A stretch of 64,000 nucleotides of DNA from Pseudomonas sp. Teo4 (GTDB taxonomy: Bacteria; Pseudomonadota; Gammaproteobacteria; Pseudomonadales; Pseudomonadaceae), in contig NZ_JAXCIL010000001.1 of the NCBI RefSeq assembly GCF_034387475.1, positions 3,038,001-3,102,000 of the forward strand. Reading direction: 5' to 3'. The notes under the pieces are model-generated. The model had not been told where the DNA came from. It saw nothing but the letters and a program-made list of their open reading frames with translations, and made no database searches. This document shows, piece after piece, positions 12,223-47,963 of the stretch. Both the position numbers and the translations under genes were made by a program. The stretch's first letter is position 1; each line of letters starts with the position of its first letter.

Positions 12223-12255
12223 GTATGTCGGGAGATATCTTGCGCCTGTGAGACC

Positions 12256-33126: not shown

Positions 33127-33204
33127 AATGGAGGCGGCCCCACCAGCCACACCCCGGCACTCAATGTCCCCGCCTTGGCTGCTCCCTTCCGGGCCTGACC
33201 AGGT
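33127..33204 (-). repeat. Left attachment repeat (attL) within ffs sequence
   Basis: This 78-bp block is identical to 47816-47893. It contains the SRP RNA core (read on the minus strand: CAGGCCCGGAAGGGAGCAGC) and the 3' end of ffs. Beyond 33204 the two copies differ. Confidence 0.95.
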
Positions 33205-33239
33205 GGCATGCAAGCATGCTCGGTAATCAATGCAGGGCT
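33133..33239 (-). pseudogene. Hybrid second 4.5S RNA-like sequence at the left junction
   Basis: On the minus strand the true ffs 3' part is preceded by a different 5' half supplied by the island. It still has GCATTGATTACC and an AGCCCT that can pair with GGGGC near the 3' end, but replaces a few bases by GAGCATGCTTGCATGCC. It could fold like an SRP RNA. No convincing promoter was seen, so it is probably silent; expression is untested. Confidence 0.55.
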
Positions 33240-33333
33240 TATGGGGCGAGGGTTTCAGGCTGATGAGGTAGTTCGCCACCCACCTTTGCAGCCACTCAGC
33301 ATAGGGGCTCAAAAACCGGGGTGTAGCCAGCAC

Positions 33334-33368
33334 TGTCACACTTTGCTGTAACACTTTGGTGTCACACC
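33334..33368 (+). repeat. Tandem 13-bp integrase arm-type repeats
   Basis: Three consecutive units of 13-bp period lie here: TGTCACACTTTG (33334), TGTAACACTTTG (33347) and TGTCACACC (33360), ending at the integrase start codon. Another TGTAACACTTTG is at 33442-33453 inside the gene, and TGTCACACTT is at 47761-47770 near the right end. The layout fits arm-type binding sites that also overlap the int promoter. Confidence 0.7.
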
Positions 33369-33369
33369 C

Positions 33370-34671
33370 ATGGCCTACATCATCAAGCGCGGGGCGCTCT
33401 ACTATCTGAATTTCAAGCTGCCGAAGCACCTCTTCCCGAGGTGTAACACTTTGCGTTTGAGCCTGAACATCAGGCACCGGCAGAGCGCCCTGTTCATTGC
33501 CGCAGCACTGGTCCAGCGACTGCATCACTACCTTAGCGAGCACCCGCTAACAGACCTTCAGACACTTCGTGCACTATGTTCGCAGTGGCGGGACTCAGCC
33601 CCCACACCTGCCATTCCTGTAGCACTACGGGCGAGTTCGACGACTCCAGTGAAGGCCGGACACGACAACCCTACCCTCGCCGCCCTATCGAGGCTCTATA
33701 TAGAAGAAGGGAAACGTGGCGGCACATGGCGGCAGGTCAGTGCGGATGAAGTCGAGCGTGCGTTATCTGACCTGTTCGAGCTAATGGGTGACATGCCTGC
33801 CATAGCCTTCGATGCTCAGCAAGCACGCACACTCAAGGAGAGGCTAAGCCGCTGTCCCCAGTACTTTGGCTTACGCCCCGAGTTCAAGGGGAAGACCCTG
33901 AGGCAGGTGGTCGAGTCGGACAGCAACTACAAGACCATCACCGCCGTAACGGTGAACAACCGGCTACGCAAGCTCACCGCCTTCATGAACTGGTGCAAAT
34001 CAAACGGCTATATAGCCGAAAATCCTCTAGCCGGGATTAAGGTGATGACGGGATCAGCGAAGGATGCACGACTATCCTTTGACCGCCACGACCTTGTAGC
34101 CCTGCTCAACCACGAAGCGCTGCAAAAGGAAGCCAGCAAGCACCCTTGGCGATACTGGTTGCCACTTCTCGGGCGAGCCACCGGAGCACGACTGGAAGAG
34201 CTCTGCCAACTGCGCATCGATGACTTCATCGAGCAGCACGGCATCCAGTGCATTCGCATTGACGACTCTCGTGAAGGCCAGAACCTAAAGAATGCAAGCA
34301 GCCGTCGCGTGCTCCCCCTGCACCCTACCCTGATCGACCTTGGCCTGTTACAGCACGTTGAGTCAGTCAGGGTTACCGGGGGTGATCGCCTGTTCCCTGA
34401 GTTGGAAGCCGTGCGAGGAAAGCTGGGCCACGCACCATCGAAATGGTTTGGCCGCTACAAGGTGAAGCAAGGCATCACCGACCCCAAGAAAACGTTTCAT
34501 AGTTTTCGCCACACATTGATTGACGACTTGCGGGATGCAGGCGTTCAGGACTCTCTCATCAAGCGTATTGCCGGCCACGAGGACGGAGCGGTAACCTTCA
34601 GTATCTACGGAAGCCGTAACCCACTGAAGGCGATGCTTGACGTAATCCGCCATATTGCCGTACCCCTATGA
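33370..34671 (+). CDS. Tyrosine recombinase (island integrase)
   Basis: This 433-residue phage-type integrase has the catalytic set visible in order: Arg in GATGARLEEL, Lys/Arg region NASSRRVLPLHP, HSFRHT, GHEDG and the nucleophile Tyr in FSIYG near the C-terminus. An N-terminal arm-binding region and a SAM-like core-binding domain precede them. It adjoins the left repeat in ffs. No Shine-Dalgarno is evident and its start abuts three arm-type repeats, suggesting autoregulation. It should excise and insert the island at ffs. Confidence 0.95.
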   Translation: MAYIIKRGALYYLNFKLPKHLFPRCNTLRLSLNIRHRQSALFIAAALVQRLHHYLSEHPLTDLQTLRALCSQWRDSAPTPAIPVALRASSTTPVKAGHDNPTLAALSRLYIEEGKRGGTWRQVSADEVERALSDLFELMGDMPAIAFDAQQARTLKERLSRCPQYFGLRPEFKGKTLRQVVESDSNYKTITAVTVNNRLRKLTAFMNWCKSNGYIAENPLAGIKVMTGSAKDARLSFDRHDLVALLNHEALQKEASKHPWRYWLPLLGRATGARLEELCQLRIDDFIEQHGIQCIRIDDSREGQNLKNASSRRVLPLHPTLIDLGLLQHVESVRVTGGDRLFPELEAVRGKLGHAPSKWFGRYKVKQGITDPKKTFHSFRHTLIDDLRDAGVQDSLIKRIAGHEDGAVTFSIYGSRNPLKAMLDVIRHIAVPL

Positions 34672-34743
34672 TTTCCGCGAAACAAGCCTGTGCATCAGCT
34701 CGCTGGAGCTGCCAGGTATAGAGGGAGGGCCGCTCCGATTAGC

Positions 34744-34968
34744 CTAACCGGATGCGGCACCACTAAGACCAGAGACCAGAGAAAGGCCGAAATATTTTCG
34801 CATAAGGGGGTTGACTCCATGTAAGCACTCGCGTAGATTCTCGCCATCACCAAGTGACAGGTGATCAACAAGGCCCGCATTGGCCAACTGCAACACCCAC
34901 CTCCCTGCAGATTCGTTAAAACAACGAATGGTTAGCACGGAGGTTTCGTCGTGTCCGGAATTCAGCAA
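34744..34968 (-). CDS. Small hypothetical protein (uncertain)
   Basis: A 74-codon frame (MLNSGHDETSVLTIRCFNES, later LVDHLSLGDGENLRECLHGV) reads plausibly as a small globular protein, but I do not recognise it. A good plus-strand promoter lies inside it, so it may be spurious or an antisense gene. Confidence 0.3.
   Translation of the reverse strand: MLNSGHDETSVLTIRCFNESAGRWVLQLANAGLVDHLSLGDGENLRECLHGVNPLMRKYFGLSLVSGLSGAASG
34811..34839 (+). promoter_or_regulatory. Candidate sigma-70 promoter upstream of the ClpP-like gene
   Basis: TTGACT (34811-34816) and TAGATT (34834-34839) are separated by 17 bp. Transcription from here would give a leader of about 520 bases before the ClpP-like gene. 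Confidence 0.5.
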
Positions 34969-35367
34969 GTTCCGACCGCATCAGCCCTAGTTTTAATTAC
35001 TTGAGTAACCACCATGCCATGATTGCAAGATGAGTCCGTGCCCGAAAAACGCCTTCAAAACACCGCCGGAGAACAACTGTATGACGTAAGAGAATCGCCC
35101 TTCATACCTGGCTGAGCATAGAGCCAGTACATCAGTACGATTCCATATACCACCAGCACGACGGAACTTTAAGTTTCCGTGACGGCACCCTGCGACCCAA
35201 AAAACACAACTAAACCGACCACAGGATAGACAGATGCATTAGCCACTTCACCGACACTTACACCGACACCCACAAACTTAATTCAACAGGCCACCCAAAC
35301 CCGCACAAGCTCTTAATTTCGAGCGACGGTTACCTATTGCCTGAAATCCGTAAAAGAAGATAACCAA

Positions 35368-36060
35368 ATGAAATACCAAGCCAACATTGACGCCATAGAA
35401 CTCGAAAGCATTTACCGCCCGAAGAACATCCTAGCCAAGCAGCGAGTTTCGACGCAATACGTTGTCCCGCTCACCGGCCCTATTGGCGAAATCCATGAGT
35501 ATGGCGAGTTCATCAACATCCTTGCCCATGCGGGAGAGGAAGATCAAGTATATATCCAACTCTCATCACCAGGCGGAAGCCTGGAGACTTGCGACTATCT
35601 TTGCCGTCGAATGGAAGAATGCGAAGCTCACATCACTGTAGAGATTGGAATGACTTGCGCCTCAGCTGCTTCTGCTATAGCCCTACAAGCCGAGGACTGG
35701 GTGATTTACGATAGCAGCACTATGATGATTCAACCTTATTACTACTCACCAGGGTACGGAAAGGAATCGGACATCCGGTCGAGAATGGAATACATGGATC
35801 GACTAAATTGGGAATGGATTGAGCGAACCTACGAAGGCTTTCTCTGCGAGGAAGAAATTATCGAAACCCTAGAACACGGCAATGATCTATATCTCTACGC
35901 AGACGATCTACGGGAACGAATGCCGCTACTCAATGAGTATCGCAAGGAGCTTAAGACCCGACGTTCCGAAGAGATCATGCAACACTGGGAACACCAAAAA
36001 AACAGCAACAGCATAGAGGCGTTATATCATTTAGACCCCATTACCACCAGCAAGAGTTAA
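35368..36060 (+). CDS. Phage-type ClpP-like serine protease fold, atypical active site
   Basis: This 230-residue protein has the ClpP/crotonase fold: SSPGGS (66-71) forms the oxyanion-type loop and CASAAS (97-102) places Ser102 where ClpP has its nucleophile. The following strand reads MMIQPYYY (119-126) where ClpP has MIHQP, so the catalytic His is missing or replaced. The acidic C-terminal half (EWIERTYEGFLCEEEIIETL) is typical of phage versions. It follows a long leader. It may be a regulatory pseudoprotease, or the His may lie elsewhere. Confidence 0.8.
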   Translation: MKYQANIDAIELESIYRPKNILAKQRVSTQYVVPLTGPIGEIHEYGEFINILAHAGEEDQVYIQLSSPGGSLETCDYLCRRMEECEAHITVEIGMTCASAASAIALQAEDWVIYDSSTMMIQPYYYSPGYGKESDIRSRMEYMDRLNWEWIERTYEGFLCEEEIIETLEHGNDLYLYADDLRERMPLLNEYRKELKTRRSEEIMQHWEHQKNSNSIEALYHLDPITTSKS

Positions 36061-36127
36061 CTCTAAGTATTCGCAAGGACATTCCGCCGCCCGAATAAAC
36101 ACGAACAACCAACTAGTGGAGACAGCC

Positions 36128-36136
36128 ATGACTTAG
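36128..36136 (+). other. Start-Thr-stop minigene with Shine-Dalgarno
   Basis: ATG ACT TAG is preceded by GGAGA (36118-36122) with 5-base spacing, in the 196-bp gap between the ClpP-like and Rha genes. Similar units lie at 35014, 35081, 35234 and 37386. Confidence 0.4.
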
Positions 36137-36256
36137 ACCCAACCTAAACCGCAACGACCTCGCCCAGCGCCTAATCAATGCGCGAGACAACTTTAAACGC
36201 CCATTCTAATCGCTACCAAACCATCGCGACGGGCTGCTACACCCAAAATTTAAGAG

Positions 36257-37084
36257 ATGAGTTATATCATGCAAACTAATACCTTTCCTGAGCAGAGCCA
36301 AATCGTAAACCCAATCACCACCTCCAACTTCATGGCATTCGATACTCCGCTTCAGACACTGACAGTTGATTACGATAACCACACAATCAACCCAATCGCC
36401 ATGAGCAGCATGGAGATCGCTGATCTGGTGGGGAGCCGTCACGACAATGTGAAAATCAGCATCGAGCGACTGGTAGATCGCGGAGTAATTGAAGCTCCTG
36501 CATTGCAGGACCTTCGCACTTTGAGTGGCCAAGCTAGCAAGGAATATATTTTCGCTGGTGAACAAGGCAAGCGTGACAGTATTGTTGTCGTCGCTCAGCT
36601 CTCACCAGAGTTCACCGCAACCTTAGTTGATCGCTGGCGCGAGCTGGAGGCAGAGAAAAAACATGACTCCCTTGCTATGCCGAACAATCTTAGTGGAGCC
36701 CTGAATCTTGCGTGCATGCTTGCTTATAAAGTAGAGGCACTGGAACAGCAGGCTACCGAAAACCTCGACAAGCTTGAATTCTACGAAGAGATGGTAAATA
36801 CGACGCAGCTATTCAGCGTATCTACAGTTGCCAAAACGCAAGATACAGGGCCGATTCGCTTGTTTGCCTACATGCGTGACCACAAAATCCTAATGTCGAA
36901 GCGCTATAAGTTCAATGAGCCCTACCAAGTACATTTGGATGCTGGGCGATTCCATGTAAGGTGGGCTCACTACAAAGACGAGTTGACTGGTGAAATTGAG
37001 TTGAAAGCAACTCCATACTTCACAGGCAAAGGAGTCACTTGGATCAAACAGTTCATCGCCAAGCACGGTCGCGACGGATTGTAA
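36257..37084 (+). CDS. Rha/KilAC phage antirepressor-type regulator
   Basis: This 275-residue protein has an N-terminal Rha domain (MSSMEIADLVGSRHDNVKISIERL, then YIFAGEQGKRDSIVVVAQLS). A C-terminal phage antirepressor KilAC-like domain follows (YEEMVNTTQLFSVSTVAK, GPIRLFAYMRDHKILM, YFTGKGVTWIKQF). Rha-type proteins alter phage development and host range control. A second ATG 12 bases downstream (36269) has AAGAG at good spacing and could be the start. It lies in the same direction as the ClpP-like and HTH genes. Confidence 0.88.
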   Translation: MSYIMQTNTFPEQSQIVNPITTSNFMAFDTPLQTLTVDYDNHTINPIAMSSMEIADLVGSRHDNVKISIERLVDRGVIEAPALQDLRTLSGQASKEYIFAGEQGKRDSIVVVAQLSPEFTATLVDRWRELEAEKKHDSLAMPNNLSGALNLACMLAYKVEALEQQATENLDKLEFYEEMVNTTQLFSVSTVAKTQDTGPIRLFAYMRDHKILMSKRYKFNEPYQVHLDAGRFHVRWAHYKDELTGEIELKATPYFTGKGVTWIKQFIAKHGRDGL

Positions 37085-37416
37085 GGACATGGGTCACGCT
37101 CACGAGCTTGAGCCCCCTAGCTTGTAATCCTCGGGTTTGCCTCGCTAAGCGCTAACAACATGGACGTATTTCCCCAGGACGACGTTATGCACCGATCTGG
37201 ACGTAATACTCATTAACGGTGGCTGGCGCAATCAAACCAGCCATCGCCTAGCGCCAAACTTCAAATAGCCACAGCTAGCTCACTCAAAGTCAATAGCCCA
37301 CTGAGCAGAGCGGATTTCGTGCCGCCTGCAATTTTGGCTACAAGTTCCTGCCGCTAACTAACGGAACACAACTGAGGGTTTGCATATGAACTGACACCAG
37401 ACAAATAGCAAAATAC
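37085..37416. other. Gene-free leader before the AT-hook/HTH gene
   Basis: This 332-bp region contains a hairpin GGTGGCTGG/CCAGCCATC (about 37218-37246) and the minigene ATG AAC TGA at 37386-37394. A GAGGG lies 7 bases upstream of the minigene and the next gene's ATG is 22 bases downstream. No gene is recognised. Confidence 0.55.
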
Positions 37417-38253
37417 ATGAAACAGAACCACCTTAATAGCGACACTATCGAACTACTCTCCCAATCTGAACTCAAAGCGCTAGACGCACGAATCGGAGCC
37501 AACGCTGACAAATGGCTTAAAGATCACGCACCGAAGACCAAGAGCAAGGCCAAACGTGAGCCCAAGAGTAATCGTGGAAGAAAGCCAAAGGTAGTTGAAA
37601 ATCCTTTCTTCGGATTCATTGGCAGTACATCGCACTGGGGTCGCTACCCAGTGTTTGCAGAAAGCATCATCGAAGGAGCTGCACGACTGGACTGGCATGA
37701 TCGCCCTATCGGAAAGGGTGGAAAGTCCATGCCATTGTCTGTAAGCAACATCGCTGTGATCCTGGAAAGCTTGCCAGTCATTTCAAACGAAGCTGTGGAA
37801 GACTTGTTGCACTTGGGTGAGCGACACGCTCGACGTTACTTTAAAGCGATGCAACTCATCATTCCTCAAATGATGGAGAGACGCCCTCGCTCACTCATCA
37901 ATGAGATGGATGGTGTCGAGCCTGAACCAAAAGCCTGCGAATGGGAGGACCGTGATGATGCGTGTGCCCCAAGCGCCGAAGCGCTGGACAAGCTGCACCA
38001 TGACCTTCGTACCTTGACTGAATACAAGACTGCTGAAGAATACGAGGCGGAGTTTTACTCTTTCACCACTCAGTCGAACTCAGTCAACTTCTCCACTCGC
38101 CAACAGCACCCAATGAAGGCCAAAGTGGTGCAGATGCTACTGGAGGGCGCCACATGCAAAGCTGTTGAGCAAGAGACTTCGGTATCCGCGAAGACAATCA
38201 GGAAGTGGCGGGACGAGATGATCACTGCACAAGGACCGCTGCAAGCCGCCTGA
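37417..38253 (+). CDS. AT-hook and HTH-containing phage-like protein of unknown function
   Basis: This 278-residue protein is not recognised as a family. It has a Lys-rich segment with an AT-hook-like RGRKPK (53-58). A central region (GFIGSTSHWGRYPVFAESII, VEDLLHLGERHARRYFKAMQ) follows. A C-terminal transposase-type helix-turn-helix (MKAKVVQMLLEGATCKAVEQ, SVSAKTIRKWRDEM) ends it. Together these indicate a DNA-binding protein, perhaps an initiator for the stem-loop array that begins 50 bp after its stop; that link is inference. It has no ribosome-binding site of its own and may be coupled to the preceding minigene. Confidence 0.7.
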   Translation: MKQNHLNSDTIELLSQSELKALDARIGANADKWLKDHAPKTKSKAKREPKSNRGRKPKVVENPFFGFIGSTSHWGRYPVFAESIIEGAARLDWHDRPIGKGGKSMPLSVSNIAVILESLPVISNEAVEDLLHLGERHARRYFKAMQLIIPQMMERRPRSLINEMDGVEPEPKACEWEDRDDACAPSAEALDKLHHDLRTLTEYKTAEEYEAEFYSFTTQSNSVNFSTRQQHPMKAKVVQMLLEGATCKAVEQETSVSAKTIRKWRDEMITAQGPLQAA

Positions 38254-38934
38254 TCCACGCCCGTCGGGGGGAGTAATTCGGCCGCATGTATCAAAGGCCA
38301 AGTGCCAACTTCCGCCAATGGGCGGAATGGGGCACAATCGCCAAAGCGGAAGCTTTGAGATTAACCACTTCTACTTATTATTTCGTGGCGTGAACGCCAC
38401 AGCAGGACCGCATGTGCCTGAAGCACGACTAACAACTCTATTAAGCAGGGGAAGAAAGGGGCAAGCAAGCCCCTTCCCGCTCTTGATCTTCCTTTCAACC
38501 TTGCTTAGAGCTGTAGAGGTTACTACAACGTGACGGAACGTCACCATGTATCGGCACAGTTCAAATCAAAAGCTCCGGGGGGCTTTTCTGCCCTGCCCCC
38601 CTGATTACAAGCATGCCGTAAGGCAAGGTAACGATTCTAGGTAGCAAGTGGGAGCGGGGCTACACTGCCCCTCCCCGCTCTTGATCTTACTTCTAATTCT
38701 ACAATCATCGCGTGCAACACAATCTAGTAACGGTACGTTACATCTAATTCTACAGCTGAACCCAAGTTGATCGGGGGCTTTCACCTCTGCCCCCGCCTCT
38801 ATAACTATCATGCCGCAGGCATTCGAGGAACGCTAACTATGCAGGACGGTGTGGTGCGTCACCACCCACATCTAATCCAGGCAGACAACACCAGAAGCCA
38901 AGAGTGACAACTCTGCTCAGCCCCTACAGCACAC
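38254..38934. ncRNA. Array of duplicated stem-loop cassettes (candidate structured RNA or ssDNA element)
   Basis: No gene is visible in 681 bp. Two homologous cassettes (A about 38445-38625, B about 38652-38822) share the order: GC stem; the string CCCGCTCTTGATCTT; a 6-bp stem; a GGGGGC/GCCCCC stem; and a TGCC/GGCA stem. The 6-bp stem is GTGACG/CGTCAC in A (38530-38544) and GTAACG/CGTTAC in B (38727-38741). Further versions are GTGGCG/CGCCAC (38385-38400) and GTGGTG/CACCAC (38851-38865). The third stem is GGGGGGC/GCCCCCC in A (38577-38601) and CGGGGGC/GCCCCCG in B (38772-38795). Paired substitutions indicate selection on folding. Strand is undetermined. Confidence 0.6.
38302..38335. other. 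Two-part hairpin at the head of the stem-loop array
   Basis: GTGCC/GGCAC (outer, 5 bp) and TTCCGCC/GGCGGAA (inner, 7 bp) enclose loop AATG, with three unpaired bases on each side between stems. A second small hairpin AAAGC-GGAA-GCTTT with a GNRA-type loop follows at 38343-38356. Confidence 0.7.
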
Positions 38935-39279
38935 TCAAACCCGTTCTTCGGGCTTCATCACCTGAAGAACAAGGGGGCTAATGATGCACTCAAGTGGACC
39001 GCCCGGTTCGATACTCACATTTACCAAGTCGATCCAGCCCCCATCGACAAGGTGAGCGAGTTCCTTGGTGAGCTTACGGAGGGTAACGTCGCACTCATGG
39101 GCGATAGCAGCCTGTGACACCCGCACTACTCCGCCCTCTCCCACGTTCGACCAAAGGGCAAGAAGGATGGCACCACAAGAACGGTGTGAAAGCACCAGCT
39201 TAAGGGCGCACCTCATGGCTTCAGGCGTGAAGTACACGGAGCCCTGGGATACAGGGGAATTAGAAGCTACCTCGGTCAT
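38935..39279 (-). CDS. Small winged-helix-type regulator (hypothetical)
   Basis: This 114-residue protein has a helix-turn-helix-like core (VSQAAIAHECDVTLRKLTKE followed by LAHLVDGGWIDLVNVSIEPG), resembling winged-helix phage or plasmid control proteins. It is divergent from an XRE repressor gene 95 bp away, as in phage switch regions. It reads toward the stem-loop array. The exact family is not recognised. Confidence 0.6.
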   Translation of the reverse strand: MTEVASNSPVSQGSVYFTPEAMRCALKLVLSHRSCGAILLALWSNVGEGGVVRVSQAAIAHECDVTLRKLTKELAHLVDGGWIDLVNVSIEPGGPLECIISPLVLQVMKPEERV

Positions 39280-39374
39280 CGGCTCGATCCTTAGGCACCC
39301 GCGAGGGCTGACCCTTCAACGAATGTCACGATTAGTGTGTGTCCGATTAGATCACATCCGCTGACCATGAGGGA
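39280..39374. promoter_or_regulatory. Divergent switch region between regulators
   Basis: The 95-bp gap contains CGATTAG twice in direct orientation (39329-39335 and 39344-39350, 15 bp apart) and TGTG/CACA flanks around the second. They are candidate operators for the XRE or winged-helix protein. Confidence 0.45.
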
Positions 39375-39605
39375 ATGCCTGCACCACCACCCTACCCAGC
39401 GCTTCAGCATCAGTTCGGCACCCGAATCAGGGAGCTGCGTATGGCTATGGGCATGAGCCAAGAAGCCTTTGCTGATCGGTGCGGTTTCGCCAGGACGTAC
39501 ATGTCTCGCATTGAGACTGGCGGTGCCAATCCATCCATCAACGCCATCAAGGTGCTGGCCGATGCCTTGGGTGTGAGCATCGCGGCCCTATTCGAGGGAA
39601 TGTGA
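39375..39605 (+). CDS. XRE-family repressor
   Basis: This 76-residue single-domain Cro/CI-type HTH protein (FGTRIRELRMAMGMSQEAFA, CGFARTYMSRIETGGANPSI, ALGVSIAALFEGM) is full length for the compact type. It is divergent from the winged-helix gene and is the likely master repressor of the island. GAGGGA lies almost directly before the ATG, so start efficiency may be low. Confidence 0.85.
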   Translation: MPAPPPYPALQHQFGTRIRELRMAMGMSQEAFADRCGFARTYMSRIETGGANPSINAIKVLADALGVSIAALFEGM

Positions 39606-39976
39606 GCGATCTTTCAACATGACTGGCCAGGTTTTTTTGGCACAGCAGCGCCCACCTACACCACATCAGCAAGGTCTGCCGAGAGCCGTTATCTGACGAC
39701 CACTATCGACCCAAAGCGACCCTTGGTGGAGGGCAGCAAAGGGCCAAACGTCACCGTTCGACTTGATCCACTTCCTACGCTAACTCAGCCAATCTTTAAG
39801 CATTCAGTGAAGCCACTGCATTGAATGATAGCAATTTGACCTCATTTTCTTGGATTTCCGAAACTTTAGATGCGAAGAGGACGAATTTAGAATCGTAGCT
39901 ACGCTATCCCAAGAACCTGAATCCCCTGCTGGCAGTTGCCAAACCGGTACAGCGCTTTAGTCAAAAGGAGCTTGCA
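39606..39976. other. Gene-free region before the alkylsulfatase
   Basis: This 371-bp region contains an unclear leader with a strong AAAAGGAGC ribosome-binding site for the next gene at its right end. I found no gene and no clear sigma-54 or sigma-70 promoter. Confidence 0.5.
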
Positions 39977-41998
39977 ATGACTTATTTCGCGAAACCGAGC
40001 AACTATGGCCGCTCTGCGTCGGCGGGCAGAATCTGGAAACTCAGTTCGACTTTCTTCTTGGCGACCGCCATTGCCATGGCATCGCAGGCCTGGGCGGAAG
40101 AAAAGGCCAAGCCGGCCACTGCCGCAACCAAGGCCGCGAACGACGCTCTGCTCAAGGAACTGCCGTTCAACGACAAGACTTCCTTCGAGCTGGCCCACAA
40201 GGGCTTTATCGCCCCCTTACCTGCGGAGCCGATCAAGGGCCCTTCCGGCAACATGATCTGGGACCCGGCTAAGTACGGCTTCATCAAGGAAGGTGCAACT
40301 GCACCGGCCACTACGAACCCGAGCCTGTGGCGGCAGTCGCAGCTGATAAATATTTCCGGCCTGTTCGAGGTCACCGATGGTCTTTACCAGGTGCGCAACT
40401 ACGACCTGTCGAACATGACCATCGTCGAGGGCAAGGAAGGCATTACCATCATGGACCCGCTGATCTCCTCGGAAACCGCCAAGGCGGCCTTGGAGCTGTA
40501 TTACAAGCACCGACCGAAGAAGCCAGTGGTCGCGGTGATCTACACCCACAGCCACGTCGACCATTACGGCGGTGTGCGGGGTGTGGTAAACGAGGACGAC
40601 GTCAAGGCTGGCAAGGTCAAGATTTATGCGCCCAAGGGTTTCCTCGAACATGCCGTAGCCGAGAACGTGATGGCCGGTACAGCCATGAGCCGTCGTGCCA
40701 GCTACATGTACGGCAACCTGCTGCCGCCTAGCGAAACCGGCCAGCTCGGTGCTGGCCTGGGCACCACCACTTCCGCCGGCACCGTGACCCTGATTCCGCC
40801 TACCGACATCATCGAGAAGACCGGCGAAAAGCACACAATCGACGGGTTGACGTACGAGTTCCTCTACGCGCCGGGCAGTGAGGCGCCAGCGGAGATGCTC
40901 TATTACATCCACGAGAAGAAGGCGCTGAATACCGCCGAGGACTCGACGCACACCTTGCACAACACTTATTCCCTGCGCGGGGCGAAAATTCGCGAACCGC
41001 TGCCGTGGTCCAAGTACCTCAACGAAGCGCTGAAAATGTGGGGCGACGATGTACAGGTCATGTACGCCATGCACCACTGGCCGGTCTGGGGCAACAAGGA
41101 GGTCAAGGACCAACTATCGTCGCAGCGTGATATGTACCGCTACATCAACGACGAGACCCTGCGTCTGGCCAACAAGGGCTATACCATGACCGAGATCGCC
41201 GAGCAGGTGAAACTGCCGCCCTCGATCGCCAACCGTTTCTCCAACCGGGGCTACTACGGCTCGCTCAACCATAACGTCAAGGCCACCTACGTACTGCACC
41301 TGGGCTGGTTCATCGGCAACCCCGCCACCTTGTGGGAGCTGCCGCCTGATGAGCAAGCCAAGCGCTACGTCGACATGATGGGCGGTGCCGATGCGGTACT
41401 GAAAAAGGCCAAGGAGTACTACGACAAGGGGGACTATCGCTGGGTGGCTGAGGTGGTCAACCATGTGGTCTTCGCCGACCCGAGCAATCAGGCGGCCAAG
41501 AACCTTCAAGCCGACACGCTGGAGCAGCTGGGCTACCAGGCCGAGAGTGGCCCATGGCGCAACTTCTACCTCACCGGTGCCCAGGAACTGCGCAATGGCG
41601 TGCAGAAACTGCCGACACCGGACACCGCCAGCCCCGACACCGTCAAGGCGATGGACCTGGACCTGTTCTTCGACTTCCTGGCCATGCGGTTGAAAGGGCC
41701 TGAAGTGGGCGACAAGCACATCACCCTCAACCTGGACTTCACTGACCTCAAGCAGAAGTACACGCTGGAAATGGTCAACGGTGTCCTCAACCACACCGAG
41801 GGCGTGCAAGCGAAGAATGCCGACGCAAGCATCAGCCTGACCCGTGACACCTTGAACAACATCATGCTCAAGCAGACCACGCTCAAGGACGCGGTCAGCA
41901 AAGGCGACGTGAAGGTCGACGGTGCCGAGGGCAAGCTTGAGGAACTGATGAGTTACATGGATAACTTCGAGTTCTGGTTCCCAATCGTTACACCGTGA
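39977..41998 (+). CDS. Alkylsulfatase, metallo-beta-lactamase fold (SdsA1-like)
   Basis: This 673-residue protein has an N-terminal export signal (STFFLATAIAMASQAWA, cleavage near residue 41). A metallo-beta-lactamase domain carries the zinc motif THSHVDHYGG near residue 190 plus further ligands (AEDSTHTLHN, MHHWPVWG). An alkylsulfatase dimerisation domain and a C-terminal SCP2-like domain (LNLDFTDLKQKYTLEM) complete the SdsA1 layout. Such enzymes hydrolyse primary alkyl sulfates such as SDS, giving sulfate and an alcohol. No LysR regulator (SdsB type) is adjacent. Codon use is GC-rich, unlike the phage-like genes around it, marking it as cargo. Confidence 0.93.
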   Translation: MTYFAKPSNYGRSASAGRIWKLSSTFFLATAIAMASQAWAEEKAKPATAATKAANDALLKELPFNDKTSFELAHKGFIAPLPAEPIKGPSGNMIWDPAKYGFIKEGATAPATTNPSLWRQSQLINISGLFEVTDGLYQVRNYDLSNMTIVEGKEGITIMDPLISSETAKAALELYYKHRPKKPVVAVIYTHSHVDHYGGVRGVVNEDDVKAGKVKIYAPKGFLEHAVAENVMAGTAMSRRASYMYGNLLPPSETGQLGAGLGTTTSAGTVTLIPPTDIIEKTGEKHTIDGLTYEFLYAPGSEAPAEMLYYIHEKKALNTAEDSTHTLHNTYSLRGAKIREPLPWSKYLNEALKMWGDDVQVMYAMHHWPVWGNKEVKDQLSSQRDMYRYINDETLRLANKGYTMTEIAEQVKLPPSIANRFSNRGYYGSLNHNVKATYVLHLGWFIGNPATLWELPPDEQAKRYVDMMGGADAVLKKAKEYYDKGDYRWVAEVVNHVVFADPSNQAAKNLQADTLEQLGYQAESGPWRNFYLTGAQELRNGVQKLPTPDTASPDTVKAMDLDLFFDFLAMRLKGPEVGDKHITLNLDFTDLKQKYTLEMVNGVLNHTEGVQAKNADASISLTRDTLNNIMLKQTTLKDAVSKGDVKVDGAEGKLEELMSYMDNFEFWFPIVTP

Positions 41999-42025
41999 AT
42001 GCTCCCTTGACGCAGTTAGGCGTCA

Positions 42026-42064
42026 AGCAGGACATCGAGTAATCGGTGTCCTGCTCTTTTTTTA
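42026..42064 (+). terminator. Intrinsic terminator after the alkylsulfatase gene
   Basis: The stem GCAGGACA/TGTCCTGC is followed by TC and a run of eight T (42057-42064). Confidence 0.93.
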
Positions 42065-42093
42065 GACCGGAGTAACGCAGAAGGAGAAGTAGC

Positions 42094-42762
42094 ATGAAGA
42101 GCAAATCGTTGGTTGCAGTAGTGTGCCTCGCCTCGCTACTGCTGCATGGCTGTGCCAGCAAGTACGTCGAGCCGGACCAGTATTCGGGCTTTCTGAAAGA
42201 CTACAGCAAACTCAAAGAGGATAAATCGCCATCGGGCGCGGCGGTCATGCGCTGGATCAAGCCGGGAATTGATGCCAGCCAGTTCAGCAGTGTGTATGTC
42301 GAGCCCAGCCAGTTTTACCCTAAACCACAGCCAACTGAAAAAATCCCACAACAGACGTTGACAGGGATCACCCAGTACTACGATCAGGCGTTGAAAACCC
42401 AGTTCTCCAAAGCCCTGCCGTTGGCCACCAGCCCAGGACCGGGGGTGCTGGTGGTACGCCCGGCAATCACAGGGGTAAGCGCCAAAACCAAGGGCCTGCG
42501 TCCTTATGAAGTGATTCCGATCGCGCTGGTCGCTGCTGGCATCAGCACGGCCACGGGTATCCGCGACCAAGATACTAGTGTTGCCACCGAGGCTGCTTTC
42601 ATCGATGGTCGCTCCAATGAAGTCGTCGCCGAGGTGGTACGCAAAGGCGCCGGTACCGACCTTGAAAACTCCTCGCAAGTAATGCAGGCCAAGGATGCTC
42701 GCGTTGTGCTCGACGGTTGGGCGAGAGACATGGTCAATGCATTCCAGGCGCTGAAGAAATAG
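42094..42762 (+). CDS. DUF3313-like lipoprotein
   Basis: This 222-residue lipoprotein has lipobox LLHGC with Cys20. It contains the DUF3313-type features SGFLKDYSKLKEDKSPSGAA, a short YVEPSQFYP repeat of the N-terminal strand and LVVRPAITGVSAKT. Its function is unknown. It has its own AGAAGGAGAAG ribosome-binding site, beginning 30 bp after the upstream terminator, and travels with the alkylsulfatase as cargo. Confidence 0.8.
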   Translation: MKSKSLVAVVCLASLLLHGCASKYVEPDQYSGFLKDYSKLKEDKSPSGAAVMRWIKPGIDASQFSSVYVEPSQFYPKPQPTEKIPQQTLTGITQYYDQALKTQFSKALPLATSPGPGVLVVRPAITGVSAKTKGLRPYEVIPIALVAAGISTATGIRDQDTSVATEAAFIDGRSNEVVAEVVRKGAGTDLENSSQVMQAKDARVVLDGWARDMVNAFQALKK

Positions 42763-42857
42763 CTCTTATGTCCTCCTGGCGTGCTGGCCGCGACAGGAGG
42801 ACTTAGAGGCCTTGAGTAGACTTCAAGTGAGAGGCTTCACTTACTGGAGGAGCGGCA

Positions 42858-43388
42858 ATGAATACCGTGTTGCTAAAGCTCAAACATGAATTCATGAAGG
42901 TGCTTCCCCCGACCCTGTTCTTCTTTGTGATCCTGCACATCGTGGCGCTGATTCGTGCACTGATGATCAAGGGCTCAGGGGTCGAGTTGCCTGTTTCAGC
43001 TTCCGTGCTGATCGCGTCCATGGTCCTTGGCAAGTCAGTACTCGTTGCTGACATGCTGCCGTTCATCAATCGATTTCCCGACAAGCCGCTGATCTGGAAC
43101 GTCGCCTGGAAAACCGCAATGTATGCCTTGGTAGCCCTGATCGTTCACTATCTGGAGCGACTGTACGATTACTGGAAAGAGTCGCCCGGGTTTGTCGATG
43201 CCAATGCTTTGTTATGGTCGTCGATGAACTGGCCGCGCTTCTGGGCGATTCAGATTCTGTTGATCACCCTGATCTTCATGTACTGCGTAATCGCAGAGCT
43301 GGCACGAGTAATTGGTCGTGGTCGACTGAAAGTGATGTTCATCGGCCCACTGCCGCCAAAAACCGCTGAATCTACGGAGGGCGCCTGA
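42858..43388 (+). CDS. Hypothetical inner-membrane protein
   Basis: This 176-residue protein has about four predicted membrane helices (LFFFVILHIVALIRALM, VSASVLIASMVLGKSVLVA, AMYALVALIVHYL, QILLITLIFMYCVIAELARV). No family is recognised. TGGAGGAG precedes the ATG. It is the last gene of the GC-rich cargo block. Confidence 0.75.
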   Translation: MNTVLLKLKHEFMKVLPPTLFFFVILHIVALIRALMIKGSGVELPVSASVLIASMVLGKSVLVADMLPFINRFPDKPLIWNVAWKTAMYALVALIVHYLERLYDYWKESPGFVDANALLWSSMNWPRFWAIQILLITLIFMYCVIAELARVIGRGRLKVMFIGPLPPKTAESTEGA

Positions 43389-44041
43389 GGGTCAGTCACT
43401 GGTTCGGGGAGGATTCTCAGGGGCATGCTCGAACGTCCGCTACGGGGCGATAGCAGTCATTCGCCACAACGCTATTACATTATCTATTGGCTATCTATTC
43501 GTCGCCCGACTAGACACGCGCCCCACTACCGGCCACCTAAACCCTCGCCACCCGAAAATACTGGGATTGAGCCAGGTGGAGCTAAGCTGAAGCCCCTTGA
43601 ACGATTAACCATTCAAAACATATGGTTTATATGCGGATGATCTCTCCCTAGCAGTACCACACTTGAAGTGGTGAAGCTATCGGTTCATCTGATCAAGCCA
43701 GACCGCATGGTTGACCTAGCACCGGGATAGTATCTGGGCATAACTGGCACTGGTTGAAGCCAGCCGATGACGAGTCAGCAACGCAGCGCACAAAGGCTCG
43801 CCGACTATCAAAGGAGTAGACAAGTCTGGTAGCAGGACAGCCCATCACACAGCACTCTCGCAAAGCTATCGGGGATAGTCATACGCTGAGACCCTTATTG
43901 GTCCATGGCCCCAGAGTGCAAACCGGAAACCCCACAAAGCCGAAGGTTCGCAACCGAGTGCACGAACATTAACTTAACACTTCGTAGACGGTCGTTAGCA
44001 ATATGTTATGATTGCCATACAGCAGACGATCACGCGAGACG
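43389..44041. other. Gene-free region before the serine recombinase
   Basis: In 653 bp I see no credible gene, tRNA or strong terminator. AT-rich promoter-like sequence (TATGTT/TATGAT near 44002-44010) precedes the recombinase. Confidence 0.5.
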
Positions 44042-44755
44042 ATGATGCAGGTAGTGGCCTATGCAAGGATGAGTACAGACGACCAGTGCTTGTCGGTAGG
44101 TGGCCAGTTCGCAGCCATCAAGATCGCAGCAGAAACCCACGGATGGGAGATTCTCGCCCAGTTCACTGACGAAGGTGTATCAGGTGCCATCGATCCCCAG
44201 GACCGACCACAATGCCGGCTGGCTCTCGCTATGGCGAAAGGGCTGGACTGCCCAGTTGTCGTGCATCGAATCGACCGCCTCACACGCGATCATGCTCACT
44301 TCGTCACACTTCAGAAGAAGTACACCTTCATCGAGGCAGAAGACGTACATAGCAGCGGCCTGCTGCGGAACATCAAGTCATTACTCGCTGAAGAAGAGCT
44401 GCTGAAAATCCGTGCCCGTACAAAGGCTGGCCTGGCCGAACTGAAGAAGCTCGCCGCCAGTGGTGATACTGAAGCTCAGGAAAAGATCGCCCGTCGTGAC
44501 GCTGGCCGTGCGAAGGCGTGGGCAGTGGGCAACGGTGCCGCTATAAAGGCTAAGCAGGTTCATGCAGACAGTCGGGCTGATGCTATCGCTCACCACATCA
44601 AGGCGTGCTTGTACGATGGTTGCACTTCGTTTGCTGCCATTGCCCAGTGCCTCAATTCCAAGGGCGTGACCACAGCTCGGGGCAGTGCATTTCAACCCAT
44701 GACTGTATCCCGCTTGATGACTCGCCTTCAGTTGTCCTTCGACACTAAGGGCTGA
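44042..44755 (+). CDS. Serine recombinase (resolvase family)
   Basis: This 237-residue protein has the resolvase catalytic start VVAYARMSTDDQ (nucleophile Ser11), the second motif FTDEGVSGAIDPQDRP and VVHRIDRLTRD. A long helix linker and a C-terminal recombinase HTH region (CTSFAAIAQCLNSKGVTTAR) follow. Two tandem ATGs (44042, 44045) occur; an upstream TTG at 44012 is open but less likely. It may resolve multimers or invert a segment, or mark a nested element. No target site was identified. Confidence 0.88.
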   Translation: MMQVVAYARMSTDDQCLSVGGQFAAIKIAAETHGWEILAQFTDEGVSGAIDPQDRPQCRLALAMAKGLDCPVVVHRIDRLTRDHAHFVTLQKKYTFIEAEDVHSSGLLRNIKSLLAEEELLKIRARTKAGLAELKKLAASGDTEAQEKIARRDAGRAKAWAVGNGAAIKAKQVHADSRADAIAHHIKACLYDGCTSFAAIAQCLNSKGVTTARGSAFQPMTVSRLMTRLQLSFDTKG

Positions 44756-45073
44756 TACCAGCTTGTAGCCTCACTGGGAGCGATTTCAGCAAAGCTCCCT
44801 GTAAGACCCTGATATTTTAAAATCATGCTCTACCGGTCCCTCCTGGCCCGTGAAGGGGATTAAGCACCGGGAGCCACACGGCTGATCTCAGCCGCTCCTT
44901 CATTGCCTCTTATGATATTCCTACCCACGCACACAGGCGATATTCTCGATAGGGTACGTTGCCTCCGAATTGTTTCAGGTAACACCGAGATTGGAAAAGT
45001 ATCCTATCCTGCCTGCAGGCCCTATCGCCTCGTAAAATAGTGCAATGGTGCAACAGCATAGAGAACACCTAAT
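44756..45073. other. Gene-free region after the serine recombinase
   Basis: This 318-bp region has a hairpin CGGCTGA/TCAGCCG near 44879-44894 and GC-rich flanking sequence. No gene is recognised. Confidence 0.45.
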
Positions 45074-45289
45074 ATGGAAAACAAGGCCCCAGCAATCGCA
45101 GACGCACTTGAACTGCTATATTTAAATCAGATTGCTTTGAGAGCGGCCATCGAAGAAATCAGTACCTGGGTCCGCCAGCGTGGGTCCGTGAATGCCCACG
45201 AAAACGCCATGGGCGCCTTAGCAACGCTTGATACAAATGAAGATGCCCTCAACGCCGCAATTTTACGATTACGCTCCCAGCTCCTCTAG
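45074..45289 (+). CDS. Small hypothetical protein
   Basis: This 71-residue, largely helical protein (MENKAPAIADALELLYLNQI, WVRQRGSVNAHENAM) resembles small proteins common on Pseudomonas islands. It has no known function. An intrinsic terminator directly follows, supporting expression as a single gene. Confidence 0.65.
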   Translation: MENKAPAIADALELLYLNQIALRAAIEEISTWVRQRGSVNAHENAMGALATLDTNEDALNAAILRLRSQLL

Positions 45290-45295
45290 CTCCTT

Positions 45296-45317
45296 GCCGC
45301 CTTCGGGCGGTTTTTTT
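45296..45317 (+). terminator. Intrinsic terminator with UUCG loop
   Basis: CCGCC-TTCG-GGCGG is followed by seven T (45311-45317). Confidence 0.95.
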
Positions 45318-45435
45318 GTCTTTCACGGCTGAGCTAGGCTTTAGACCAGCGTGAAGCGCTAGCCACATAGCAGGCTATGCTATCTAGGAAGGTACAGACT
45401 GCATGCCAACCACTGGTCAGTGATCAGTACGTGAG

Positions 45436-45702
45436 ATGGGTACTCTGATTGATAGGGCCAAGACGGAAATGAGATTTCAGATCGACTATTCGCTCAAAGG
45501 TGAATCGAGGGTGTGGCACTGCGAAGGCCCGAGAAATGATCTATCGCTAGACGATGCATTGAAGGCGCTGATCCAGCTTCACACACCCTTCATAACGCAG
45601 CTCTTACAACCTGACTGCATGCGATCAACCGACGACGAGCGAAAGCTGGCGATCCAGAACTTAGGGATATCTGATGTCAGAATTCAAGCACTTCACCCTT
45701 GA
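45436..45702 (+). CDS. Small hypothetical protein
   Basis: This 88-residue frame (MGTLIDRAKTEMRFQIDYSL, SLDDALKALIQLHTPF) is unrecognised. Its 3' end overlaps the next gene by 29 bases in another frame, an arrangement typical of coupled small phage genes. Confidence 0.5.
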   Translation: MGTLIDRAKTEMRFQIDYSLKGESRVWHCEGPRNDLSLDDALKALIQLHTPFITQLLQPDCMRSTDDERKLAIQNLGISDVRIQALHP

Positions 45703-45943
45703 TGATCTTCGTCAAGCCGATGCACTCTCCCACCCCGCTCATGACTTTCCGCGATTCTTCCTGATTTTCCTAACCATGCTGGACAACGGTGGCCCGATTG
45801 CTGCCGATGAGATTGCTCGGGTTTATGAACTGGAAATGGACAACCTAAAAGCTTACTGCCGTCAAGCTGCTGAACTATTGAATTCGGAGCGCGGATTTCT
45901 TCATGCTAACGAAAAGGTGCTAGCAGATTGGGCGGGCTATTAG
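45674..45943 (+). CDS. Small hypothetical protein
   Basis: This 89-residue protein (MSEFKHFTLDDLRQADALSH, DNGGPIAADEIARVYELEMD) is unrecognised and mainly helical. TTAGGGAT 9 bases upstream supports the ATG at 45674. It overlaps the preceding small gene. Confidence 0.6.
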   Translation: MSEFKHFTLDDLRQADALSHPAHDFPRFFLIFLTMLDNGGPIAADEIARVYELEMDNLKAYCRQAAELLNSERGFLHANEKVLADWAGY

Positions 45944-45994
45944 CCACGCCCCCATATGGCATCGCGCATTCCGCCGCGATCAGCTGACCAGCCC

Positions 45995-46363
45995 TTAGCT
46001 CGGGTTAAACTCTGGAATAGGACGCTCATGCCAATGCAATCGCTCTTCGCCATCTTCCTCTTCGAGACGAAGATTGCTGACCATTCGCCCAAGTAAAAAT
46101 GGATTATCCCCACACGTGATTCTACCCTGCCAAGGAACACCATTAATGACATCGAACGAGGCAGGATAGGGGTTTACGCTTCTGTCTTTCGCATATGCCA
46201 GCTTTTCAGCATCCGAGAAGTTCCTCGACACGTACAGCTGCTCCATCAAGTCTTTCACATATGCACCCTGTCGCCGATGGCTGACGACAGCAACGACCTT
46301 GTCTGCTACAGCAGCGTGATCACCCATCCATTCCCACGTGATTAGCCATGCTGTTTTCATCAC
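45995..46363 (-). CDS. Hypothetical protein, possible partner of restriction-type nuclease
   Basis: This 122-residue protein (MMKTAWLITWEWMGDHAAVA, VINGVPWQGRITCGDNPFLL) resembles a widespread unnamed family seen near restriction and defence genes; that is recalled, not searched. It lies 107 bp downstream of the HsdR_N-like gene on the same strand, so the two may be co-transcribed. Confidence 0.65.
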   Translation of the reverse strand: MMKTAWLITWEWMGDHAAVADKVVAVVSHRRQGAYVKDLMEQLYVSRNFSDAEKLAYAKDRSVNPYPASFDVINGVPWQGRITCGDNPFLLGRMVSNLRLEEEDGEERLHWHERPIPEFNPS

Positions 46364-46470
46364 GAGCCTCCATACTGAAGTGCATGCGACACCTAACCAA
46401 GTGCCACATCAAGCGACTCATAACTCATGCCAACACTGAGCCTGCATTGGCATGAGCCAGCAGGCAACAA

Positions 46471-47553
46471 CTATTCGTAGAGTGAAACGGAGCCTTTCAG
46501 TTGCTCGGCAAAGGTGTAGATTTCATCGAGAGATGAGATTGGATGCCGAGTTTCATTTTTATCAGAATCGAACAGGCCAATATACTTCTGACTCCGATTG
46601 AAGTGTAATCGACAGATGGGCTTTCGATTATTGTCATCAAGCAAAATACCAAAGTAACTCTGTGTATCGCGATGCACTATTCGCTTCGCATCAACAACTG
46701 CCCGCACAATCGCCTTGACGATATGGAATCCTTCAAGCTCATCAAGGGTGGTTTGAATACGATCTTCATCAACTTCTTCGGCAGGCTCTGCTGACACAGT
46801 AGATTGAACTGCACTCATCGCATAGGACGGCTCGACGGCGCCACTCATTGCAGACTTGAGTCGATCATTAACCTGATCCCCTAGAAACTGAATTGCAGCC
46901 TTACGGGTCAAAGTGGTGAACTGCTCTCTAACCTTCTGGGTGATGATTCCATCGTAAACCCGAGTAGCGAAAAACTTAACGAAGTCATCACTCGGCTGAC
47001 TGAACTGCGAAGCCATCTCTTTCTTGATCTGGCCAACGTACTTCAGTTCTCCAGCTGCACTGATGATCGAGTCAACATCGAACGCAGACTTGGTTAGCTT
47101 CTGAAGCTCAGGAAGGGCGTGCTCATCCAGATCGAGAAGGTCCAGTTCCAGGAACGGCTTCTCATCCATCTTGTTAGGGGCATCGAGGTCGGTGAAGAAC
47201 CGGTAGACCTGGCCATTGGTAAGGATCGAGATACGGGCGGTGGTGACGTGGAAATACCGGAAGAGCTGGCTAGCGTGATTGATATGCAGCGGCTCGCCGA
47301 TCTTCTTGCACTCGATCAGAATCTGAATCTCGCCGTTCTTCATGATGGCGTAGTCGATCTTCTCGCCCTTCTTAGTCCCAACGTCGCAGACGTACTCGGG
47401 CGTCACCTCGGAAGGGTCGAAGACATCGTAGCCTAGGACAGTGTTGATAAAGGGCATGACGAAGGCAATCTTGGTCGCCTCTTCCGTTTGGATTGCAGGC
47501 CCCTGCTGGCGGATTTTGGCTGATAACGCGTTCAGTCGCTCTACGAATTCCAT
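46471..47553 (-). CDS. HsdR_N-type restriction nuclease, solitary
   Basis: This 360-residue protein has an N-terminal PD-(D/E)xK nuclease domain of the type I restriction R-subunit N-terminal class: Asp67 in KIDYAI and ECK at residues 81-83 after a beta strand. The rest (ATRVYDGIITQKVREQFTTL and a C-terminal RLHFNRSQKYIGLF region) matches stand-alone phage or island versions without the helicase. ATG 47553 is chosen because GAGGAGCGAGAG directly precedes it. No methylase or specificity gene is present. A defence or exclusion role is inferred from family and position beside the right end. Confidence 0.82.
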   Translation of the reverse strand: MEFVERLNALSAKIRQQGPAIQTEEATKIAFVMPFINTVLGYDVFDPSEVTPEYVCDVGTKKGEKIDYAIMKNGEIQILIECKKIGEPLHINHASQLFRYFHVTTARISILTNGQVYRFFTDLDAPNKMDEKPFLELDLLDLDEHALPELQKLTKSAFDVDSIISAAGELKYVGQIKKEMASQFSQPSDDFVKFFATRVYDGIITQKVREQFTTLTRKAAIQFLGDQVNDRLKSAMSGAVEPSYAMSAVQSTVSAEPAEEVDEDRIQTTLDELEGFHIVKAIVRAVVDAKRIVHRDTQSYFGILLDDNNRKPICRLHFNRSQKYIGLFDSDKNETRHPISSLDEIYTFAEQLKGSVSLYE

Positions 47554-47815
47554 CTCTCGCTCCTCGCTCAGATGCCACATCCTAGTAGCACAGCCGCCGT
47601 ACTGGCAATTACAAATCACAGCGAGCTAAAGGGAAAAGCGGGGCACTAGCGGATGACAGAGCTTCGCCGAGATTGGCGTAACCGCAGAGGGGTATTGGAG
47701 AGGAATGATAACGAAGCTAGAATTCCCAGCACAGTGCACCACTTAGGTGTACCTAAACGCTGTCACACTTCGAGATTTTTGAGCGAGAAACCCTTGAGAA
47801 TTCAAGGGCTTGCGT
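47554..47815. other. Right-end region of the island
   Basis: These 262 bp contain an arm-type copy TGTCACACTT at 47761-47770 and the hairpin described separately. No gene is seen. Confidence 0.5.
47788..47808 (-). terminator. Island-supplied terminator-like hairpin after ffs
   Basis: On the minus strand CCCTTGA-ATTC-TCAAGGG is followed by TTT. It lies just downstream of the reconstituted ffs 3' end and inside island DNA, so the island appears to provide the transcript end. Confidence 0.6.
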
Positions 47816-47893
47816 AATGGAGGCGGCCCCACCAGCCACACCCCGGCACTCAATGTCCCCGCCTTGGCTGCTCCCTTCCGGGCCTGACCAGGT
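47816..47893 (-). repeat. Right attachment repeat (attR) within ffs
   Basis: This 78-bp block is identical to the left repeat and covers the 3' part of functional ffs plus a few bases beyond the RNA end. Confidence 0.95.
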
Positions 47894-47919: not shown

Positions 47920-47963
47920 GATGGAGCCACCACTACGCTGCTCGCCATGTGACGAGCCGCGCC

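Follow-up and report, generated by a model that had tools for sequence, protein, structure and literature searches.

The window, by which we mean the whole 64,000-nt stretch of DNA that was analysed, carries an island of about 14.7 kb at 33127-47893 in ffs, the gene for 4.5S RNA. As in an integrative island, an integrase gene was found together with a 78-bp perfect direct repeat of the target gene end, one copy at each end, and the integrase matches phage integrase families. The gene order is integrase, ClpP-like protease, KilAC antirepressor and a protein encoded at 37417 (hereafter the 37417 protein), followed by a hairpin array, a winged-HTH ORF, an XRE regulator, and cargo together with a serine recombinase. 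A 673-aa cargo ORF at 39977-41998 is, we take it, similar to an alkylsulfatase. The island also contains a 382-aa ORF at 46471-47619, which is alike in 6 of the 20 loci that carry closely related arrays.

Directly after the gene for the 37417 protein and a short leader, two hairpin motifs, X and Y, alternate across 38385-38865 (Table 1). The X motif has the form GTGRCG-3/4 nt-CGYCAC or is of a GTGCC type, and it is accompanied by an AT-rich tail such as GATAACAACTCTAT; TGCC-GTAA-GGCA represents a further X hairpin type in the window array. The Y motif is a nested GGGG/CCCC hairpin (GGGAA-GAAA-GGGGC-AAGCAA-GCCCC-TTCCC) followed by the tail GCTCTTGATCTT, and on direct reading the longer string CCCGCTCTTGATCTT was found at 38476-38490 and again at 38674-38688. 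The spacing of the c copies gives a repeat period of 198 bp, longer than the 170-180 bp estimated for each cassette in the initial annotation. That annotation had placed the feature at 38385-38865, where it is indeed present, although the island to which it belongs extends far beyond these limits. Inspection of the alignment showed that most a hairpins resemble X and the d hairpins resemble Y when read from the other strand, and the order is therefore approximately X, Y, X-bar, Y-bar. The reverse complement of GCTCTTGATCTT fits the pattern RATCAANRGC, a pattern shared by 15 of the 20 near arrays and 5 of the 8 far ones (both sets are defined below). Short ORFs cross the array, and one minus-strand ORF is alike in 4 of 20 loci; since the loop lengths vary by one base, the array was read as non-coding. 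Copies within the window array are only 71-81% alike over 24-37 nt and alternate in orientation, and on this basis a CRISPR array, for which near-identical direct repeats and even, unique spacers would be expected, was rejected. Elsewhere in the window, the hairpin scan showed two GC hairpins (GCGCCGC-CCGC and GCGAGC-AAG) at 12258-12293 that are found again, with their order inverted, at 12430-12465, about 140 bp apart.

Table 1 Features of the island and of its hairpin array, in positions of the window
Feature	Position	Strand	Evidence or remark
Left att copy (78 bp from the 3' part of ffs)	33127..33204		Perfect repeat of 47816-47893
Tyrosine integrase of the island	33370..34671	+	Pfam Phage_integrase, 49.6 bits (cut-off 27.1)
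Upstream protein (37417 protein)	37417..38253	+	N-terminal half phrog_3360, 77.8 bits; C-terminal HTH_28, 18.8, below cut-off 25
Leader	38254..38384	+	Specific to the 37417 gene family; G run, CGGCCGCATGTAT motif; leader alignment
Leader hairpin CAAAGC-GGAA-GCTTTG	38342..38357	+	CAAAGC-GNA-GCTTTG type in 9 other loci
X hairpin a0, GTGGCG-TGAA-CGCCAC	38385..38400		Same place in 14 loci compared
X hairpin b1, GTGC-CTGAA-GCAC, tail GACTAACAACTCTAT	38414..38426	+	R1 unit 38411-38492 begins here
Y hairpin c1, nested GGGAA..GGGGC-AAGCAA-GCCCC..TTCCC	38449..38478	+	R1 match, 93.3 bits
Y tail GCTCTTGATCTT, copy 1	38479..38490	+	Direct reading
X hairpin a1, GTGACG-GAA-CGTCAC	38530..38544		Direct reading; covariation
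Y hairpin d1	38577..38601	-	Inverted Y by inspection
X hairpin b2, TGCC-GTAA-GGCA	38614..38625	+	R1 unit 38610-38690, 40.9 bits
Y hairpin c2	38650..38675	+	Direct reading; R1
Y tail GCTCTTGATCTT, copy 2	38677..38688	+	Direct reading
X hairpin a2, GTAACG-GTA-CGTTAC	38727..38741		Compared with a1, G-C to A-T pair change
Y hairpin d2	38772..38795	-	Outer C-G where d1 has G-C
X hairpin b3, ATGCC-GCA-GGCAT	38810..38822		Partial third unit
X hairpin a3, GTGGTG-CGT-CACCAC	38851..38865		Direct reading
Winged-HTH ORF facing the array	38935..39279	-	Phage replication initiators, phrog_270, E 0.004 (weak)
Serine recombinase (resolvase type)	44012..44755	+	Pfam Resolvase, 76.1 bits (cut-off 23.3)
Right att copy, within ffs (47827-47923, - strand)	47816..47893		78-bp repeat

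The initial annotation had described a structured cassette, present twice and with base changes that occur in pairs, and this was borne out both in the window and in its relatives. Direct reading located the four 6-bp X stems with their exact complements where they had been reported, with loops of 4, 3, 3 and 3 nt (a0 to a3), and the noted G-C to C-G swap in the GGGGGC stem lies at its outer end. The number of hairpins clearly exceeded the level in shuffled controls, produced by our own dinucleotide-preserving procedure, in which incomplete mixing would raise the control rather than lower it. The window array holds 4 perfect 6-bp stems with loops of 3-5 nt, whereas 100 shuffles averaged 0.41 and never gave more than 3; for 12 arrays together the count was 46 against 5.9 (max 13), and the 20 near arrays contain 64 non-overlapping hairpins of at least 6 bp against 7.4 (max 15). 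Folding of the whole window array gave z scores of -3.7 on the plus and -3.3 on the minus strand (40 shuffles).

Paired changes were analysed in 14 or 17 of the 20 near loci. In the a hairpin (18 copies, 17 loci), 106 of 108 cells at matched positions were Watson-Crick pairs, a degree of pairing that was reached in 0 of 20000 re-deals of the 3' arms between loci. The observed pairing was reached in 105 of 20000 re-deals for the a0 hairpin (14 loci) and in 5 of 20000 for the d hairpin with its flanks (18 copies). At one outer d position all four Watson-Crick pairs occur, with 11 of the 18 copies paired there. Because the sequences are related by descent, these counts are not independent, and the GTAACG form, present in 6 of the 18 a copies, was probably inherited by several loci. 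Homologues with retained pairing were found, so that the initial proposal escaped the main observation that would have spoken against it. We have little doubt that the hairpin array is real and conserved.

The near set comprises 20 arrays, namely the one in the window, 18 from Pseudomonas genomes (two of them in genome G178) and one from an IMG/VR contig. Of 398 Pseudomonas genomes, 11 were found by BLAST to carry the array, the window's own included, and 12 by the model R1, the union being 13. R1 was built from 9 b-c units with a TGA-type or like loop; 22 units had been picked by hand, of which 18 went into A1. Ten genomes with the array, five of them new, came from the family-level draw of 398 genomes, and the order-level draw of 293 genomes returned the own genome plus one match at E 0.0095 that was treated as chance. 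The R1 search of IMG/VR, which took in 80 of 94 stretches as listed plus 14 more, gave one convincing match (L134, 75.7 bits), the next among the stretches listed being at E 0.041; the leader pattern had 0 matches in IMG/VR, and array DNA was without a match in the plasmid and phage DNA collections. A scan of genome contigs with the 37417 protein gave one locus, L015, for which a hairpin scan was made. Units detected by R1 lie on both strands of one and the same array in L019, L021 and L024 (E<=1.1e-4).

Both copies of the att sequence were seen around the array in 7 of the 20 loci (the window, L017, L018, L022, L025, L172 and L173, with outer distances of 8.6-14.8 kb), a single copy in 6 and no copy in 7. 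In the IMG/VR contig IMGVR_UViG_3300024309_000099 (L134:1-2753, oriented like the array) the right end of the island, att and the left end are joined, a junction that could stem from an excised circle or from two islands in tandem. It is practically certain that the array belongs to a mobile island. Two further ORFs were noted in such islands: L017:13220-14304, downstream of the array, where two ORFs match phrog_2427 and phrog_4062, phage families of unknown function, and a 572-aa cargo ORF at L054:14231-15949, presumably a reverse transcriptase judged by motif.

In all 20 near loci the array lies 3' of a gene, which stands 42-464 bp before the first match. By BLAST, the upstream genes fall into five families, with an N-terminal HTH protein in 6 loci, the phrog_3360 type in 5, a related type with a weak phrog_3360 match in 4, a DEAD-box protein in 3 and a RepL-like protein in 2. 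One of the five is related to the phrog_3360 type, so at least four of the families are mutually unrelated in these searches. Most contain an HTH, with HTH matches mostly below the Pfam cut-offs, and the upstream protein of L021 had no Pfam match. The RepL match reached 22.1 bits in L022 (cut-off 20.3) and stayed below it in L018 (14.2); the DEAD-box protein showed a sub-threshold match to the herpes origin-binding protein (16.8 against a cut-off of 20). Structure models were poor (pLDDT 63 for the N-terminal-HTH protein, 47 for the 37417 protein), and a fold search with the former model returned nothing at E<=0.001. According to the leader alignment, the leader tracks the upstream gene family and the array is common to all families. 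A leader hairpin CAAAGC-GNA-GCTTTG, with N being A, C, G or T, occurs in 9 loci, and with the GGAA loop of the window the total is 10 of 20. A run of 6-11 G follows soon after the stop codon in the window (38269-38274) and in the leaders of L172, L173, L176, L177, L178 and L180; the run varies in length and is shorter or absent in other leaders of the family.

The 37417 protein has 216 homologues in one search; in a search of the 398 genomes, homologues were found in 19, the own genome included. Eight homologues outside the near set that reach the C-terminal HTH are followed, after the stop codon, by a hairpin array, referred to here as far arrays. Their stems differ from those of the window (CTGTCG-TATA-CGACAG, GTCAGC-GTCC-GCTGAC, CATAGC-TTC-GCTATG and others), and R1 barely detects them, the best E value being 0.0094 in L181. 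Together they hold 38 non-overlapping hairpins of at least 6 bp against 3.2 (max 8) in 100 shuffles, each array exceeding its own shuffle maximum except L180 and L182, which equal it. Among the other ten of the 18 non-near protein loci, seven with an N-terminal match only (L184-L190) showed on inspection no such array and at most one Y-like hairpin, and L191-L193 were searched with R1 and left out of inspection. The array sequence of the window was matched just once in its own 6.5-Mb genome at E<=0.001. This genome also contains a second island (G000:C2:1994850; L194, L202), in which a far-type array accompanies a homologue of the 37417 protein at 34% identity. Since the far arrays stand after the same gene with other stems, the layout is kept while the stem sequence is not. 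In the far island L197, two serine recombinase genes (6738-7304 and 12065-12658) were seen, one on each side of the HTH gene and array.

Such turnover could be thought to arise without selection on pairing, with template switching (quasi-palindrome correction) maintaining perfect palindromes within a tandem repeat that is decaying. Template-switching mutation is known for short palindromes, and in L022 (about 7085-7150) one Y tail has grown into tandem CTCTTG and ATCTTG hexamers. However, 28 loci with very dissimilar stem sequences all have their hairpin array in the one position behind the upstream gene, and the tails of the arrays stay conserved, so that this explanation is hardly credible.

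Whether the array works as DNA or as RNA was judged from several features. Single mismatches in the 6-bp stems of near arrays were G-T in 38 and A-C in 46 cases (26 and 30 in shuffles), and the 7-bp stems gave 17 and 23. In the far arrays the corresponding numbers were 19 and 11 (shuffles 11 and 12) for 6-bp and 11 and 5 for 7-bp stems; the far arrays alone thus lean to the plus strand. A structured RNA, in which the array would be transcribed from a leader promoter and its long, repetitive transcript would regulate or serve as a sponge or scaffold, would fit this excess, and it would also fit the TATAAT-like box that on inspection points into the array in several leaders, the GNRA-like loops such as GTAA, and the X loops, of which 28 unique ones end in A without starting in T against 9 of the mirror type (binomial 0.0013), a modest plus strand bias. 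Against the RNA stand the lack of a G-T excess in the near arrays, the loop bias that the flanking hairpins show as well (125 vs 87, Fisher p 0.04), and the comparable folding of both strands in 12 arrays, with z from -0.9 to -8.9 on the plus and from -1.6 to -7.2 on the minus strand. The three loci in which a single array has units on both strands likewise argue against it, as does the stretch 37900-39400 of the window, where one sigma-70 promoter and one terminator were predicted, not above shuffles. In line with the first description, which recognised no known riboswitch, Rfam returned the SRP RNA only for the window at gathering scores, no array match for 12 loci at E<=1 and, for 13 loci, nothing in the arrays apart from a sub-threshold MIR5292 in L183 (27.8 bits, gathering 105). 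We therefore consider the RNA unlikely, and the specific RNA reading of the initial annotation was not supported; if it were true nonetheless, the islands would encode a large repeated RNA absent from Rfam. Given cassettes in both orientations, G-T mismatches that overall are not above A-C, and RepL-like or O-like proteins adjoining some arrays, we lean towards an element that acts as DNA.

One way to act as DNA would be as a duplex or cruciform site, where binding of the upstream HTH protein, or of a host protein, to the palindromes would regulate the island genes. The palindromes are symmetric and strand-neutral, and the array lies beside an HTH-type gene, with regulators facing it. Yet the loops measure 3, 4 and 5 nt in 37, 45 and 3 of 85 hairpins and are longer in the Y hairpins, and many different stem sequences occur within one array, features that speak against a dimeric operator, as had been noted for the loops in the window. 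The same kind of array, moreover, stands beside upstream proteins that are unrelated by BLAST, which makes a binding site of this type decidedly unlikely.

The downstream genes offer another candidate. Downstream of the array, 17 of 20 near loci (of the other three, L023 reaches the contig end) and all eight far loci encode a serine recombinase; Pfam was run on that of the window only and the others were placed by BLAST. The array might accordingly be a res-like recombination or resolution site of this enzyme. Res sites, however, have a three-subsite layout, unlike ten or more differing palindromes, and in the near loci the recombinases lie 0.8-6.1 kb away and belong to more than one subfamily; we regard such a site as improbable. 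It was also considered that the array might be a signal by which a phage satellite is packaged or hijacks its helper, as the islands contain phage-like genes and tblastn with the N-terminal half of the 37417 protein gave matches in 165 phage records, 164 of them from Pseudomonas phages and all below 60% identity. Against such a signal, the phage collection contained no array DNA, three phage loci with a 37417 homologue had no array and their genes are tightly packed after it, and there was no capsid or terminase gene among the island proteins scanned. This possibility appears very improbable.

The reading that we favour, with a probability of roughly 0.4, is that the array is a replication or priming origin of an excisable Pseudomonas island. 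It draws on the position of the array 3' of a gene from one of five families, one RepL-like and one with a DEAD-box protein, and on the winged-HTH ORF, which is present on the opposite strand in 8 of 20 near loci and matches a phage O-like initiator well in L021 (E 4.3e-7) and weakly in the window, L020 and L022. The frequent serine recombinase, a usual gene of circular replicons, adds to this, as do the leader that follows the gene family ahead of an array common to all, the L134 junction, the units on both strands, the missing overall G-T excess, and the precedents of PICI, pRN1 and the RSF1010 ssi sites set out below. Initiator identity is supported for the RepL-like protein of L022 only, among the 20 loci with the array 3' of a gene. 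The TATAAT-like leader boxes and the mismatch counts of the far arrays suit an RNA and hence count against an origin. So do the HTH matches that mostly fall below the Pfam cut-offs, the poor structure models, the absence of array matches from the plasmid and phage DNA collections, and the possibility that L134 represents a tandem. Several functions had been left open at first; the gene neighbourhood points to an origin without being proof of it, and we infer that the array is a replication or maintenance locus of the island.

No iteron set was detected in the window between 37900 and 39500, nor two sets flanking an AT-rich region, and DnaA boxes with at most one mismatch within 1.5 kb were absent from 8 of 14 loci and single in the other 6, with no cluster. 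An array of IHF sites was rejected: in the near arrays WATCAANNNNTTR occurred 13 times at one mismatch against 6.6 (max 14, 30 shuffles) and twice exactly against 0.2 (max 1), and in the far arrays 7 times at one mismatch against 5.0 (max 8) and never exactly. Lacking an iteron set, a DnaA cluster and a clear IHF enrichment, the array was not assigned to PICI or iteron origins.

If the array is an origin, the upstream protein would act at the leader specific to its own gene and open the DNA there. The adjoining array, once single-stranded or supercoiled, would then extrude hairpins with conserved tails on both strands, which would serve as priming or primosome-assembly (ssi-like) sites, and the serine recombinase would resolve multimers of the island circle. 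Replication would in that case begin at a locus with a preserved form but almost freely changing hairpin sequences, and this kind of locus would function next to several different types of initiator. More broadly, the array may constitute a new class of element. In alternating hairpin arrays of this class, selection would act on architecture and short tails rather than on stem sequence, and across a large family of satellite-like islands of Pseudomonas they would form a shared origin or priming platform, to which different initiators (RepL-like, origin-binding-helicase-like, phage-derived HTH) and serine recombinases are attached; this generalisation is tentative, and we rate it as rather doubtful. 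The arrays would mark a little-described island family of Pseudomonas, near arrays being present in 13 of the 398 genomes and far arrays in another 7 of this set.

No description of the array was found in the literature searches made, including the available parts of two papers on Pseudomonas islands (PMC2647930, PMC12629846). REP and BIME elements resemble it in combining short looped palindromes in opposite orientations. According to excerpts of PMC3733652, REPs have GTAG or CGTC as an unpaired tag and occur repeatedly throughout the genome. They were rejected for the array, which was matched once in its own genome, the array of the second island having another sequence; by inspection, CGTC lies inside the X stem and there is no constant GTAG tag. 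The promoters of the N4 virion RNA polymerase, as far as the accessible text of PMC4496689 describes them, are small hairpins in DNA that have a sheared G:A pair and three bases in the loop and are extruded by supercoiling, and the available part of PMC3715699 reports hairpin promoters with 3-nt loops for a Pseudomonas N4-like phage. The leader hairpin CAAAGC-GNA-GCTTTG has such a 3-base loop in 9 of 20 leaders (GGAA in the window). In N4, three promoters stand ahead of early genes.

The other three systems are origins or priming sites. In RSF1010, following the parts of PMC4434180 at hand, ssiA and ssiB are 40-nt sites, each a hairpin with single-stranded tails, one per strand and served by an own primase, whereas no primase was identified in the islands. 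The archaeal plasmid pRN1 has a single 100-nt stem-loop downstream of its replication gene, the integrity of which is needed for replication (available text of PMC4234260); the Pseudomonas islands have an alternating array and are compared with pRN1 here by layout. PICI origins differ in consisting of two iteron sets around an AT-rich stretch, in place of hairpins, but within the integrated island they lie immediately 3' of the replication initiator gene, as stated in the accessible portion of PMC6092414, and the array is situated 3' of a gene at every near locus.
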